Below are positions 2,719 to 14,595 of a stretch of DNA of 18,068 nucleotides, piece after piece. Numbering within the stretch: position 1 is the first letter of the stretch; each line of letters begins with the position of its first letter. Under the pieces are notes generated by a model. That model was not told where the DNA came from. It ran no database searches and saw only the letters and a list, made by a program, of their open reading frames with translations. The position numbers and the translations under genes are program-made. The DNA lies in the NCBI GenBank assembly GCA_900541565.1, contig UQKB01000030.1:1-18068 (forward strand). The letters are read 5' to 3'. The stretch comes from an uncultured Oscillospiraceae bacterium. GTDB taxonomy: Bacteria; Bacillota; Clostridia; Oscillospirales; Acutalibacteraceae.

Positions 2719-5700
2719 TTAAAAAATTTTCCCAATTTCGTCGTTTATGGTAATTCTTGAAAAATATTGCTGGACGATAAGGATGTCGGCCAGATTAACC
2801 TCGCCGCTTCTGTTGACATCGGCGCTTAAGACCTGCAGCGGTGTGAACTGGACTTTATTTGAAAGATACATTTGCATATAAAGCACGTCGTCCAGCGAAA
2901 TTTTTAAATCCCCGTTGCTGTCACCAAGCATATATTTTTCTCCTTCCGGGACGGTAGGCACGGTGGGGGTTGTTGGGTCGTCTTCATCGTCCGGGTCCGT
3001 GGGGGCGGTTGGGCGAATGGGATCCGAGCCGATATATTCTGCCCATTTCCCGTCCTGATAGATCATCGACGTGCCGGAAAGCTGCATGCCGGGTTCTTCC
3101 TGTCCGGGGATTTGCAGACCGTCCATACCAGCTGTAAACAGAACACAGCAGTTGTCTTCAAATTCTTCCGGGACCTCGTAGCTGTAAAGATTATCGTTTT
3201 CTTTTGTCATCAATTCACCAGGCCATGGCGCGTTTTCCGGAGCTGCCGCGCTGGAAGAAAGAACCCTTGCAGTTGTGGACATTGTGTGGATGGCCATAGC
3301 GGCGGCATCCCAGGCGTTGGCGTTGTACTTGCCGTCTGTCTGGGTACCGTCAAGCCAATAGCCCTCGGCACCAAGCGAAAGGTCGACCGTTTGCGCGCTG
3401 CCGTTATTAAATACAACGCTGGTTGCACCGGAGGGGATATCGATCTGATAATTTCCCTTACCTTCAAAATTGCTTTCAAACCACGTCATGTTGGAACCGG
3501 GCCATTCTGCGCCGCAGGTGCCGCTTTCGTTAAAGAAATAAGCGTTGACATTACCCCAGCCAAGGCTGTCTGTAAATTTGATCGTACCGGAAAAGCCCCC
3601 ACCGCCGGTATTTCCGCCGGAATCGCCGCCCATGGCGGCGGCATCCCAGGTGTTGGCGTTGTACTTGCCGTCTGTCTGAGAACCGTCAAGCCAATAGCCC
3701 TCGGCACCAAGCGAAAGGTCGACCGTTTGCGCGCTGCCGTTATTAAATACAACGCTGGTTGCACCGGAGGGGATATCGATCTGATAATTTCCCTTACCTT
3801 CAAAATTGCTTTCAAACCACGTCATGTTGGAACCGGGCCATTCTGCGCCGCAGGTGCCGCTTTCGTTAAAGAAATAAGCGTTGACATTACCCCAGCCAAG
3901 GCTGTCTGTAAATTTAATGGTATTTGAAAAACCACCGCCGGTATTTCCGCCGGAATCGCCGCCGCCAATATCGTCTCCACCGCTGCTGCCGGTGTTTTTA
4001 TAGATATAGCAGTAAACCTGGCTCCAGCCCTCCTGACTGTTGTCAAAATATACGCGGGTAACGGCGTTGGGATCTTTTTTAAAGAATGTGTAGGTTTCTT
4101 CTGTTGTGGCCGCACCATCAGTAGCTGTGACCTTCAGTGTGATTTCTGTGTTAACAGGTACGTTTTTTCCGATTGTGACCGTTGTATCGCCACGGTATGT
4201 TTGCACAGCGCCGTTATCGATTTGATACGTGCCGGAGGTGGCGTTGGAAAGGCCAAGGCTTACTTTGAGCGTATCTGTGCGGAACGTAAATTTACCGTCT
4301 TCCGGACTTACCGTATTTTTGGGCTCTGTGACCGCATTATATACAACGGCGATGCCCGTACTGCCAATTTGTCCTTTGATTTGTCCGCCCGAAACGGTAA
4401 ACGTATTGCCGGAAATCTGGTCTGTGTATGTGCCGTCTTTCATTTTATTGGCTTTTACGTTTACAGAGGCGGAGTTACCGCTTACGTTTACCAAAACAAC
4501 GCCGCTTGTACCGCGCTCGTTATAGGCAATACTGCCGCTGGAGGCCAGATATTCGGATTCTCCGCTAAAATAGTTGTGGAACTGGTTAACAGCGGTGACC
4601 TCTTTGCTTTTCCACTGGGTAGATTCGATGTTTCCAAGCGTGCCGCCGCGATATCCTCTTGAGCGTGCATAATAAAGTGCCGTTGCGCCGTTTCTTGAAC
4701 CGACCATGGCCCACGCCTTGTTGATGTTTGCATCGCTTACGCCGGTTGATTCTCTTGATTCGTTGGAATAGGTGTCGTGCGATTCGGCCCACAAGACAAT
4801 TTTGCTTGCGGATTGTCCCGTATTGTAATGCGGCGTTGCCGCGCCGGAGGCATTTCCGCCTGCCACAGCGCTGCGGATGTTATTGCCGGTTGTGTTGTCC
4901 GTAATGCTCATGTATTTTGTATAGGAGCCGTAGCTGCGGCCGCTTCCGGGAGTGTTGAGGATTTCGCCGTAGTTGTACAGCTCATCGTATGTTCCCTTTG
5001 AAGCGTAGTACGATTTTGCAGCGTTCAGCACATTGGGCCAGAACTGGCTGCCGTTTGCGCCGTCGTCCGGCGTTTCAATATGTTTTGCAGCGTCCCACCG
5101 GAACCCGTCGGCACCGTTATCTATGCATTCCTTGAGAAAAGAAATCACCCTGTTTTGCACTCTGCTGTCCTCTGTTCGGAGGTCTGGCATGCCAATCTGG
5201 CCTTTTACCACGTTATAAGCGTTTCCATCGTGTTGGTTTCCTTCGTTGTGGAACAGCCAGTTGTTTGCAATTTCGGGCTCATACTGGTATGCCCTGTCGC
5301 AAAGGTTCGTCCAGTCGGTTCTGTTTCCCAGATGGTTTGCGACAACGTCTACAATAATGCGGATTCCGTATTTATGAGCTTCATCGCACATTGCTTTAAA
5401 GTCCGCTTTATTGCCAAGCGCGCTTCCGCCGGTGTTGTCAATGGTAAAGCCGGCCGGCTGGTAAAATACCCACCAGTTTCCAACGCTTACATTCTTTGTG
5501 TTTTCCTTGGCAATCTGGATAGGTGACGTTTGGATTGCGGTGTAGCCGCTTTCCGCAATCGTTTTCATCTGTGCTTTGATGTTGTTGAACGACCAGTTCC
5601 AGGCGTGCAGGATAACACCTTCCTGAACGCTGTCTGCAAGGCCATAGTCCGCAGCAGCGGCGGGTTCGGTGTACTCCACGGCTGCGTTTACCGGCACAGC

Positions 5701-5769
5701 GGGGAGCACAAAGATGCTGACTGCCATGCAAAGCGTGACAATCAGACTAAGGGTTTTTTTCAAAATCAT
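2719..5769 (-). CDS. Secreted alpha-amylase (GH13_28 type) with nested starch-binding modules and dockerin
   Basis: Secreted starch hydrolase, probably part of an amylosome. Three ATGs in a row occur at 5775-5767. I choose the third (5769) because it lies six bases after GGAGGA, as in the paralogue, and gives MILKKTLSL; the protein is then 1016 residues. Order: signal peptide (1 to about 28); GH13 domain with VDVVANH, GFRWDAAKH (nucleophile Asp226), YGEIL (Glu269) and AESHD (Asp332); C-domain; AmyE-like domain (about 488-565); first part of a CBM26 (573-596, VYFDNSQ...YCYIY); Gly/Ser linker; two near-identical CBM26-like modules (about 614-712 and 726-824); second part of the first CBM26 (from about 838, SSSAAAPENAPWPG); acidic PT linker (914-943); dockerin (945-1016) with loops beginning GDSNGD and ADVNRSG. 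The catalytic residues are all present. The split CBM26 is an inference from alignment to the paralogue. Confidence 0.96.
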   Translation of the reverse strand: MILKKTLSLIVTLCMAVSIFVLPAVPVNAAVEYTEPAAAADYGLADSVQEGVILHAWNWSFNNIKAQMKTIAESGYTAIQTSPIQIAKENTKNVSVGNWWVFYQPAGFTIDNTGGSALGNKADFKAMCDEAHKYGIRIIVDVVANHLGNRTDWTNLCDRAYQYEPEIANNWLFHNEGNQHDGNAYNVVKGQIGMPDLRTEDSRVQNRVISFLKECIDNGADGFRWDAAKHIETPDDGANGSQFWPNVLNAAKSYYASKGTYDELYNYGEILNTPGSGRSYGSYTKYMSITDNTTGNNIRSAVAGGNASGAATPHYNTGQSASKIVLWAESHDTYSNESRESTGVSDANINKAWAMVGSRNGATALYYARSRGYRGGTLGNIESTQWKSKEVTAVNQFHNYFSGESEYLASSGSIAYNERGTSGVVLVNVSGNSASVNVKANKMKDGTYTDQISGNTFTVSGGQIKGQIGSTGIAVVYNAVTEPKNTVSPEDGKFTFRTDTLKVSLGLSNATSGTYQIDNGAVQTYRGDTTVTIGKNVPVNTEITLKVTATDGAATTEETYTFFKKDPNAVTRVYFDNSQEGWSQVYCYIYKNTGSSGGDDIGGGDSGGNTGGGFSNTIKFTDSLGWGNVNAYFFNESGTCGAEWPGSNMTWFESNFEGKGNYQIDIPSGATSVVFNNGSAQTVDLSLGAEGYWLDGSQTDGKYNANTWDAAAMGGDSGGNTGGGGFSGTIKFTDSLGWGNVNAYFFNESGTCGAEWPGSNMTWFESNFEGKGNYQIDIPSGATSVVFNNGSAQTVDLSLGAEGYWLDGTQTDGKYNANAWDAAAMAIHTMSTTARVLSSSAAAPENAPWPGELMTKENDNLYSYEVPEEFEDNCCVLFTAGMDGLQIPGQEEPGMQLSGTSMIYQDGKWAEYIGSDPIRPTAPTDPDDEDDPTTPTVPTVPEGEKYMLGDSNGDLKISLDDVLYMQMYLSNKVQFTPLQVLSADVNRSGEVNLADILIVQQYFSRITINDEIGKIF
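3301..3579 (-). repeat. Tandem starch-binding module, C-terminal copy
   Basis: This 279-base stretch repeats at an offset of 336 bases (112 codons) with only three mismatches by eye. It encodes a CBM26-like module with WPG and IDIPSGATSVVFNNG motifs. All three differences fall in two codons and change two residues, so the duplication looks very recent or recently converted. Confidence 0.95.
3637..3915 (-). repeat. Tandem starch-binding module, N-terminal copy
   Basis: Partner of the 3301-3579 copy, in the same frame. The two are joined by a GGDSGGNTGGG linker that is itself repeated before this module. Identity is about 99 percent over 279 bases by direct comparison. Confidence 0.95.
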
Positions 5770-5808
5770 CATCATTCCTCCATTATTTCAAGATAAATCC
5801 TTATTTTT

Positions 5809-8199: not shown

Positions 8200-8223
8200 C
8201 TTACATCCCTCCTGACATGTTTT

Positions 8224-8253
8224 AGTATACACCAGAACAAATGTTTTCGTCAA
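8224..8253 (-). promoter_or_regulatory. Sigma-A promoter of the radical SAM/DUF4130 operon
   Basis: Minus-strand -35 TTGACG (8248-8253) and -10 TATACT (8224-8229) with an 18-base spacer, about 24 bases before the TTG start. The spacer is occupied by a LexA-like box. Confidence 0.8.
8234..8247 (-). promoter_or_regulatory. LexA-like SOS box in the promoter spacer
   Basis: Plus-strand reading AGAACAAATGTTTT contains GAAC-N4-GTTT. It agrees with the Gram-positive LexA/DinR consensus CGAACRNRYGTTYC in the central 12 positions. It fills the space between -35 and -10, where a bound repressor would block RNA polymerase. Confidence 0.68.
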
Positions 8254-8260
8254 GAAAAAT

Positions 8261-8274
8261 CGAACAAATGTTTA
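8261..8274 (-). promoter_or_regulatory. Second LexA-like SOS box upstream of the -35
   Basis: Plus-strand reading CGAACAAATGTTTA matches 13 of 14 positions of the Gram-positive LexA consensus CGAACRNRYGTTYC. Its 12-base core is identical to the box at 8234-8247. The centres are about 27 bases apart. Confidence 0.72.
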
Positions 8275-8348
8275 AATTTGGGCGAGGTAAAAGCAAGAAG
8301 CATGGCGTTATCAAAGTTTGTACAAACAAAGGGGCTTCTATTTTTTTG

Positions 8349-8378
8349 TTGCAGGCGCGGTAGATCGTATGGTACAAT
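8349..8378 (+). promoter_or_regulatory. Promoter of the TIM44-like gene
   Basis: TTGCAG (8349-8354) and TACAAT (8373-8378), spacer 18, located 34 bases before the ATG. Divergent from the radical SAM promoter, about 100 bases from the nearer LexA-like box. Confidence 0.6.
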
Positions 8379-8411
8379 AAAAACACATTTACGAGGAAAT
8401 GGGGGTTCTGT

Positions 8412-9437
8412 ATGAGGAGACGGCTTGTTGCAGTTTTTTTGTCTGTATGTGTGGTATGCTTTCTGACTGCGGCCGGTTGTATGGGAGCAGGTGCTTTGCA
8501 GGCAAGACCGCTTGATGTGGGCAATTACAATGATTACGGCGGCGGCAACTATGGCGGCGGTTACGATGGCGGAAATTACGGCGGAGATTACGGCGGCGGA
8601 GTGATTTTCTTTGGAGGGGATGACGATGGCGACGGCTCCGGCGGAGGCGGCGGGATTGGTATAGTTGTGGCCATATTTGTCTTGCTGGTTGTGCTGATCC
8701 TTGTATTTGACAAGATGAAAAAGGCAAAGCGCCCGCCTGAAGGATCGGGCAGTATACCGGTGCAGCAGCCGCAAAACCACGAGGCAAGCATAATACCTGC
8801 GATTACGCAAATTGACCCGAACTTCAGCAACGATAAATTTATAGCGTGGACCAAGGAAGTGTTTATTACGCTGCAGCAGGCGTGGACGGCGCGTGACTGG
8901 TCAAAAATCCGCCCGTTTGAAAAGGAAGAGCTTTTCCGGCAGCATGAGATGCAGCTGCAGGAATATATCAATTTGAAGCGGATTAATAGGATTGAGCGAA
9001 TTAACATCCGGCAGGCATATTTACACAAATATGTGCGCGACAGCCAATACGAATACCTGACGGTATACATGTCTACGCGTATGGTAGACTATATTATAGA
9101 CGAACAGACCCGCAAGGTTCTAAAGGGAGACCCCAATACAGATTGTTATTTGGATTATGTGCTTACGTTTATGCGTAAAACAGGGGTAAAAACAAAGGAT
9201 GCGGCCAGCACCGCCGTTTCCAGGTCGTGTCCGCACTGTGGCGCGCCGATGCAGGTTACAAGCGCAGGCAAGTGTGAATATTGCGGCAGTATTATTACCA
9301 CCGGTGAATTTGATTGGGTGCTTGCAGAAATGGACGCAGTCAAACCGGGGATCCACATAGATAATACAGGCGTTATCATTCAGGATAGCGGCACGCAGAG
9401 TAAAGAAGGCGAAAACAACGGCGATACGCCGCAGTAA
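8412..9437 (+). CDS. Membrane protein with Gly-rich segment, TIM44-like domain and zinc ribbon
   Basis: 341 residues. An N-terminal signal or first membrane segment (about 4-28) is followed by a Gly/Tyr/Asp-rich low-complexity stretch (37-82, GGGNYGGGYDGG), a transmembrane helix (82-99, IGIVVAIFVLLVVLILVF) with basic residues just after it, a TIM44-like domain (about 134-262) and a two-pair cysteine zinc ribbon CPHC...CEYC (273-291). The charge pattern suggests the TIM44-like part and ribbon are cytoplasmic. Bacterial TIM44-like proteins are uncharacterised for the most part; I can assign no reaction. AAGC near residue 23 is a poor lipobox, so lipidation is doubtful. The ATG follows GGGGG at six bases. 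A hairpin follows the gene. Confidence 0.85.
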   Translation: MRRRLVAVFLSVCVVCFLTAAGCMGAGALQARPLDVGNYNDYGGGNYGGGYDGGNYGGDYGGGVIFFGGDDDGDGSGGGGGIGIVVAIFVLLVVLILVFDKMKKAKRPPEGSGSIPVQQPQNHEASIIPAITQIDPNFSNDKFIAWTKEVFITLQQAWTARDWSKIRPFEKEELFRQHEMQLQEYINLKRINRIERINIRQAYLHKYVRDSQYEYLTVYMSTRMVDYIIDEQTRKVLKGDPNTDCYLDYVLTFMRKTGVKTKDAASTAVSRSCPHCGAPMQVTSAGKCEYCGSIITTGEFDWVLAEMDAVKPGIHIDNTGVIIQDSGTQSKEGENNGDTPQ

Positions 9438-13581: not shown

Positions 13582-14016
13582 TCAGCAGAAGTAAACGTCC
13601 ATTCTGTTGCCTTCCAGTTCGCCGTTTACAACAAAATACGCGGCGTTCTCCTCCGGCTTTACGTAAACCTCAAGCGTTTTGATAGCGTCCTTGCCGCCCT
13701 GCGCCTTATAGGTTGCTTCTACGTTCTTAACAATCTCTTCCGCAGCGACTTTAACGCCGTTGAATTCAATAAACAAAGAAACTTCTGCAGCCTTCTTTGC
13801 AGGTGCCTTTTTTGCCGCCGTTGTCTTTGCGGCCGCCGTTTTTGTAGCCGTTGTCTTTGCAGCGGTTGCTTTTTTAGCGGCTGTCGTCGTTTTTGCAGCT
13901 GCAGCCTTGGGGGCTTCTGCTGCCTTTGGAGCAGTTGTTTTTCCTTCTGTTACTTTTGCGGCAGCGGCCTTTGTCTCCGTTGCCTTTGCAGGGGTTGTCT
14001 TCTTTGCCTGTGCCAT
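13582..14016 (-). CDS. Ala/Lys/Thr-rich basic protein with DUF6465-like C-terminus
   Basis: 144 residues from the ATG at 14016 (MAQAKKTT); the extra upstream codons of the longer reading run into the leader. The first ~75 residues are a repetitive Ala/Lys/Thr tract (AAKTTAAKKA-type units), very basic and histone-H1-like. The last ~65 residues form a folded-looking domain (VSLFIEFNGVKVAAEEIVKN ... AAYFVVNGELEGNRMDVYF) that I associate with DUF6465, found in clostridia. Function is unknown; nucleic acid binding by the tail is an inference. It has a perfect consensus promoter, so high expression is expected. GAAGG about eight bases upstream serves as ribosome binding site. Confidence 0.82.
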   Translation of the reverse strand: MAQAKKTTPAKATETKAAAAKVTEGKTTAPKAAEAPKAAAAKTTTAAKKATAAKTTATKTAAAKTTAAKKAPAKKAAEVSLFIEFNGVKVAAEEIVKNVEATYKAQGGKDAIKTLEVYVKPEENAAYFVVNGELEGNRMDVYFC

Positions 14017-14089
14017 CTTAACATACCTTCTTTCAGAATATAAAAATCGCAATTTAAGCTTTTTTAATATGCGGCTTTACCACGCAGCT

Positions 14090-14189: not shown

Positions 14190-14468
14190 TCATATATCAC
14201 AACAAATGCTGTGCTTTACGCGGTCGTTGACTTCCGCCCTTTTTGCGTTGTTAAAGCGGTCTACCGTACCGACCAGATAGCCGGTGATCCGGCGAATGCG
14301 TTCAATCGGAACCGTTTCAAAATGGCAGGTGAGATCGACGTATTCCCCGTCCAGGTGAATATCCATTGCCTCTATCTTTCTGCCGGGATATTTCTTTTGG
14401 CTGTGGTCAATGTACAGGTCAATCTCTTTCTGCGAAAGCTCGCCGCCTGTTACGTTTACTGCAATCAT
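14190..14468 (-). CDS. Small protein resembling the glycyl-radical tail of anaerobic ribonucleotide reductase (NrdD)
   Basis: 92 residues from the ATG at 14468, chosen because AGGAGG lies about nine bases upstream. The C-terminal part RRITGYLVGTVDR (59-71) and NNAKRAEVNDRVKH (73-86) resembles, from memory, the end of E. coli NrdD, where the motif RRVCGYLG carries the radical glycine; the corresponding residue here would be Gly63. The N-terminal 55 residues (GGELSQKEIDLYIDHSQKKY ...) match no domain I know. The CxxC pairs of the NrdD zinc ribbon are absent; the only cysteines are 48, 89 and 90. Short clostridial proteins of this type are sometimes annotated as anaerobic ribonucleoside-triphosphate reductase. 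It cannot be a reductase alone. A spare-part or regulatory role is possible but unproven. Confidence 0.7.
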   Translation of the reverse strand: MIAVNVTGGELSQKEIDLYIDHSQKKYPGRKIEAMDIHLDGEYVDLTCHFETVPIERIRRITGYLVGTVDRFNNAKRAEVNDRVKHSICCDI

Positions 14469-14514
14469 ACTTTTTCCTCCTCTTTTTAAAATCAATATAT
14501 TGCGTTTTGAGTCC

Positions 14515-14543
14515 ATTATATAACAATATTTTGTTGTTTTCAA
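14515..14543 (-). promoter_or_regulatory. Sigma-A promoter of the NrdD-tail-like gene
   Basis: Minus-strand TTGAAA (14538-14543) and TATAAT (14515-14520), spacer 17. Leader of about 40 bases. It is divergent from the WYL regulator promoter, with about 50 bases between the two -35 boxes. Confidence 0.82.
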
Positions 14544-14595
14544 GTCTATTTTATAAAAACAGGAATAATTTTTATTTTTGTTGAAAAATGTCCGG

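Follow-up and report, generated by a model that had tools for sequence, protein, structure and literature searches.

That a radical SAM/DUF4130 gene family is under SOS control is already in print as a prediction, for Clostridium acetobutylicum (2013) and for the Bacteroidetes (2021). Two correspondences are assumed in the comparison: CAC3344, the gene of unknown function in the clostridial pair, is taken to be a DUF4130 gene, and COG4277 is taken to be the family TIGR03916. The 2013 report predicts LexA control for CAC3343-CAC3344, given as a radical SAM gene and a gene of unknown function (PMC3828012). A 2021 paper assigned the COG1573-COG4277 operon to the SOS network of the Bacteroidetes; it also cites earlier reports from the Verrucomicrobia and Alphaproteobacteria, describes the operon as a putative system of base excision repair that includes a uracil-DNA glycosylase, and lists SplB, the spore photoproduct lyase, as SOS-regulated in several species (PMC8565304). 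DUF4130 was predicted in 2013 to be an enzyme related to mutagenesis, in association with SplB-like photolyases and uracil glycosylases (PMC3765255), and a LexA table for Streptomyces venezuelae lists one radical SAM gene (PMC9380542). In the literature searched, one paper names DUF4130 and none names TIGR03916 or TIGR03915.

The DNA analysed here (the window) is a stretch of 18,068 nucleotides from an uncultured Oscillospiraceae bacterium, and the features of its radical SAM/DUF4130 operon are collected in Table 1. The locus resembles COG1573-COG4277 in being a two-gene operon under an SOS motif, but the SOS motifs of that operon are others, and profile searches with the DUF4130 protein of the window found DUF4130 alone, with no match to the uracil-DNA glycosylase superfamily. 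It differs from CAC3343-CAC3344, as that pair is described, in having two identical boxes, one of them in the -35/-10 spacer. SplB, too, is a radical SAM enzyme with links to DNA repair and to SOS regulation, but the protein of the window matches TIGR03916, and SplB was not among the matches listed for it by sequence or by structure (the latter from a model of pLDDT 71.6), those by structure being other radical SAM enzymes. The comparison contributes the extent of the association among Clostridia, the pairing of the boxes, the neighbouring DinB and S24 genes, and an operator type that changes between phyla. The preferred reading, to which a probability of about 0.9 is given from sequence comparison, is that the two boxes are LexA operators that would repress the TIGR03916-TIGR03915 operon, which would be expressed in the SOS response and whose products would act on damaged DNA.

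Table 1. Features of the radical SAM/DUF4130 operon and of its promoter in the window
Feature	Position	Strand	Remarks
Radical SAM gene, TIGR03916	6883..8199	-	TIGR03916, 662.6 bits against a curated cut-off of 343.5
DUF4130 protein, TIGR03915	6074..6904	-	TIGR03915, 219 bits against a cut-off of 112.25; PF13566, 157.1 against 27
LexA-type box 1	8235..8246	-	Exact copy, within the 18-bp -35/-10 spacer
LexA-type box 2	8262..8273	-	Exact copy, upstream of the -35
-35 TTGACG	8248..8253	-	Promoter reading; TTGAC invariant in five aligned promoters
-10 TATACT	8224..8229	-	TATACT in four of five aligned promoters, TATAAT in one
Ribosome-binding site AGGAGGG	8207..8213	-	GGAGGG invariant in five aligned promoters

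The two genes overlap by 22 bases, and the DUF4130 gene lies downstream of the radical SAM gene in 59 of the 61 loci found in the genome scan described below. A TTG codon, picked by its ribosome-binding site, was chosen as the putative start of the radical SAM gene. Structure comparison of the predicted model assigned the TIGR03916 protein to the radical SAM fold. Its CX3CX2C cluster motif (C65, C69 and C72, in the numbering of window:6883-8202) was invariant in all 24 aligned TIGR03916 sequences, as were C21, C44 and C53. The mean pLDDT of the model was middling, and residues 15-53 fell below 50, so that it gives no basis for assigning a role to the extra invariant cysteines. The protein carries a C-terminal helix-hairpin-helix, and its C-terminal part matches a ComEA-related protein (E 4.6e-4). 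In the eight loci checked, the ORF that follows the pair differs in its Pfam matches, with no third gene in common; in two loci this ORF is a helicase gene (RecQ at L033:5337-7286 and XPD-like DEAD_2 at L048:5135-7249).

Read on the minus strand, the promoter consists of TTGACG (8253-8248), an 18-bp spacer and TATACT (8229-8224). The 12-mer GAACAAATGTTT is present in two exact copies with a start-to-start distance of 27 bp, one in the spacer and one upstream of the -35, as the sequence-only reading had proposed. The LexA consensus of Bacillus is CGAACRNRYGTTYC. Against this consensus, the upstream copy fits at 13 of 14 positions, the count given earlier, and the spacer copy at 12 of 14. The loose pattern GAAC-N4-GTTY is not unusual in the window: it was found twice, where 1.10 occurrences are expected, and 57 of 200 shuffles reached two. 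The 12-mer is less easily obtained, as two occurrences with at most one mismatch arose in only one of 200 shuffles of the window. When the intergenic stretch 8200-8411 (212 bp) was subjected to 20,000 dinucleotide shuffles, two or more sites of at least 7/8 appeared in 0.25 % and two identical sites in none. The case for the boxes is strong because they are conserved in relatives.

A scan of GTDB species genomes yielded 61 loci, of which 60 were used, L061 being omitted for want of the gene start. The four closest relatives (L001-L004) were 78-83 % identical in the scan. Their alignment with the window shows conservation of the -35, the spacer box, the -10 and the ribosome-binding site next to a diverged sequence above the boxes. 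The spacer box is present in all four, and in L001, L003 and L004 (GAATATTTGTTC) the upstream box is kept at an unchanged distance of 27 bp; in L002 the upstream box is absent from the aligned promoter and the spacer box is perfect. Across the 60 loci, GAAC-N4-GTTC was found within 250 bp upstream of the radical SAM gene in perfect form in 32 and at 7/8 or better in 46, against 2 and 14, respectively, of 200 other ORFs of the same loci. The ORF starts in this control are mechanical, and 23 further ORFs sharing the upstream stretch had been set aside. In mononucleotide shuffles the corresponding values were 0.23 and 6.7 %. With the window counted, box-bearing loci number 47; in 34 of them a box overlaps the best-scoring promoter, and 16 have two or more boxes.

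For a second sample, 299 genomes were taken evenly across the phylum to which Clostridium hydrogenum (G007, locus L012) belongs. TIGR03916 scored above its cut-off in 65 of these, at 66 places. Perfect boxes were found in 18 of the 66 upstream stretches (one of them shorter than 250 bp) and boxes of at least 7/8 in 47, while the reversed pattern gave 0 and 1, respectively, and mononucleotide shuffles 0.29 and 6.3 %. G007 is common to both sets and more overlap is possible; since the loci are related, the counts over them are not independent. The conservation in related genomes to which the sequence-only reading had looked is thus seen, with a box in 46/60 and 47/66 loci and both boxes in three of the four closest relatives.

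Loci scored as lacking a direct box (none of at least 7/8 within 250 bp) numbered 14 of 60 in the first set and 19 of 66 in the second sample. One of the former, L016, has two perfect boxes just beyond the 250-bp limit. In L043 the radical SAM gene begins five bases after a gene for a Y-family (DinB-like) polymerase (L043:1766-2989; PF00817, PF11799), the promoter of which carries two boxes of 7/8. In L046 and L060 it begins 57 bases after a gene for a repressor with an HTH and an S24-peptidase domain (L046:2257-2937, L060:2230-2937); the promoters of these repressor genes have no box of that kind and contain a different palindrome in the spacer. The contig of L051 starts inside the upstream ORF, the last residues of which resemble the end of the same repressor. 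The Bacilli loci L055, L057 and L058, together with L056 (Calditrichaeota) and L059 (Calditerrivibrio), remained below 7/8, and L013, L018, L035 and L038 lack a direct box for no evident reason.

To what extent LexA is the expected binder was considered from the recA and lexA promoters of ten relatives' genomes, read up to 400 bp from the match start; the window organism's own are not among them, and in G002 the contig extends no more than 128 bp upstream of lexA. A recA box of at least 7/8 was present in six of the ten, in two cases 250 and 387 bp away, and the identical 12-mer GAACAAATGTTT stands upstream of recA in three (G004, G005 and G010). A lexA box of at least 7/8 was found in three of the ten, and a weaker AAAC-N4-GTTT at lexA in five more. 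No recA box of at least 7/8 lies within 400 bp of the match start in G001-G003, the three nearest genomes. Genome-wide counts of the loose pattern in five relatives showed no enrichment, with 21 to 22 sites where its reverse had 23 to 27, and are uninformative; among eight other sites whose neighbourhoods were read, a known SOS gene, recA, adjoined one alone.

The boxes might be bound not by housekeeping LexA but by another palindrome-binding repressor, phage-type or a second S24 protein, so that control by damage would be indirect or absent. The repressor genes with their own palindrome in front of the radical SAM gene in L046 and L060 would fit such an arrangement, as would the recA genes of the three closest genomes, which are without a clear box. 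Against it stand the same 12-mer at recA in three relatives and, in Clostridioides difficile, at both lexA and recA, whose operators contain it and whose promoter regions both bound LexA when binding was measured (PMC4234289). An S24 repressor would, moreover, still be expected to answer to RecA, and the proteobacterial records described next show different LexA motifs at the same gene. Binding by another repressor is regarded as improbable.

Relatives were found in 158 of 72,556 plasmid records and in 10 of 50,697 phage records; judged by the first word of the organism name against ten listed names, at least 133 of the 158 plasmid records are from proteobacterial genera. Eleven records were read, ten of them plasmid records picked by hand and one a phage record. 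Both Caballeronia records have a perfect CTGT-N8-ACAG, the E. coli-type motif, which is also the LexA motif of Caballeronia itself. In all seven Alphaproteobacteria records, a perfect GAAC-N7-GAAC stands no more than 50 bp from the start. The Alphaproteobacterial SOS motif is given as GTTC-N7-GTTC (PMC8565304) and the E. coli-type LexA motif as CTGT-N8-ACAG (PMC4234289). Shuffles produced the perfect Alphaproteobacterial motif in 0.56 % and the E. coli-type motif in 0.33 % of cases, and the reversed motifs were perfect in none of the 11 records. Among the motifs tried, the Parabacteroides record showed a weak six-letter GGA-N5-TCC alone, and the Acinetobacter phage record showed none of the LexA motifs. 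In Clostridia, Alphaproteobacteria and Betaproteobacteria alike this gene carries a LexA operator, in three different sequences, so that an SOS role can hardly be doubted. Membership of the operon in the SOS response is considered very likely, because the boxes lie on the promoter and because, in many bacteria, the host's own version of the LexA site is found at the same gene.

The partner gene in five of the plasmid records is annotated as a UdgX-family uracil-DNA binding protein, and all five of the proteobacterial partners tested contain DUF4130 followed by a uracil-DNA glycosylase domain (PF03167). Parabacteroides has a TIGR03915 gene in place of the UdgX partner, and in the remaining three plasmid records the stretch read has no annotated partner. 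A TnpB-family gene lies between the radical SAM and UdgX genes in Azospirillum (L149:2746-3888). The radical SAM/DUF4130 pair at L144:2983-5045 belongs to a record of 240 kb that is labelled an Acinetobacter phage; glycyl-tRNA synthetase genes are present there as well, so that this label may be doubtful. The idea that the pair is a phage or defence system was dropped: no close relative was confirmed in IMG/VR viral contigs, relatives in phage records are confined to the 10 mentioned above, and neither protein matched a PADLOC family.

Two further explanations of the boxes were weighed. They could serve the divergent gene at 8412 (a Tim44-domain protein), with the radical SAM promoter adjacent by chance, and they do lie within the intergenic stretch common to both genes. 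They overlap or adjoin the minus-strand core promoter, however, in a register kept in the closest relatives, and they follow the radical SAM gene even though the upstream ORFs listed for relatives vary in strand, length and distance, so that this explanation is very improbable. It is just as far-fetched that the repeated 12-mer is a functionless chance duplication in an A+T-rich promoter, as the loose pattern is indeed expected about once per window but the boxes are conserved in the four closest relatives, in the first set and in the second sample, and two identical sites arose in 0 of 20,000 shuffles of the intergenic stretch.

If the boxes are LexA operators, LexA on box 1 would block the -35/-10 region and box 2 would add to LexA occupancy. 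RecA on single-stranded DNA triggers the self-cleavage of LexA; by this established pathway, the operon would be expressed in the SOS response. The radical SAM enzyme may then be tethered to DNA via its C-terminal helix-hairpin-helix, with the DUF4130 protein as its constant partner, and the targets of the pair are probably lesions in gaps or single strands. The UdgX-type fusion of DUF4130 in the proteobacterial records would point to lesions of the uracil or abasic type. These results do not, of course, establish the role of the enzymes, for which LexA control alone is insufficient, but the direct SOS control proposed from the sequence is favoured by the conserved boxes and by the 12-mer at the recA genes of relatives. 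The family names give just 'putative DNA repair'; the operator finding indicates when to look, namely after DNA damage, and turns an old annotation guess into a directly testable question, that of which lesion the pair repairs.

A more far-reaching proposal, offered tentatively and thought rather unlikely, is that the pair, with a uracil-glycosylase-type domain fused in Proteobacteria, would form a broadly conserved SOS core of undescribed lesion chemistry, in which DUF4130, as a highly diverged DHH/DHHA1-type (RecJ/Cdc45-like) protein, would present or trim single-stranded DNA for radical-based lesion removal. The structure ranking was coherent with a DHH/DHHA1 fold for DUF4130. The DUF4130 profile had no match by sequence among solved structures at E values up to 1, and profile-profile comparison with four small DHH/DHHA1 sets, at least one reference sequence of which was apparently read in the wrong frame, returned nothing; with that comparison empty, the identity of DUF4130 as a DHH/DHHA1 enzyme stays a lead.

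Several other genes of the window are of interest in their own right. A 1018-aa alpha-amylase (2719-5775, minus strand) combines three starch-binding stretches of the CBM26 type with a type I dockerin, an architecture that hints at an amylosome or a similar complex for starch degradation. In a 123-aa protein encoded at 14190-14561 (minus), residues 83-117 match the very C-terminus of the anaerobic ribonucleotide reductase NrdD. By analogy with YfiD, the stand-alone spare domain for pyruvate formate-lyase, this protein might be a stand-alone spare NrdD domain. Adjacent genes between 9535 and 13448 (plus) encode a methylenetetrahydrofolate reductase, a small protein that carries a partial MetH activation domain on its own, and a MetH-like protein, which matches just the first 850 of 1182 model positions. 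The stretch 13582-14052 (minus) encodes a Lys/Ala-rich histone H1-like protein with DUF6465.
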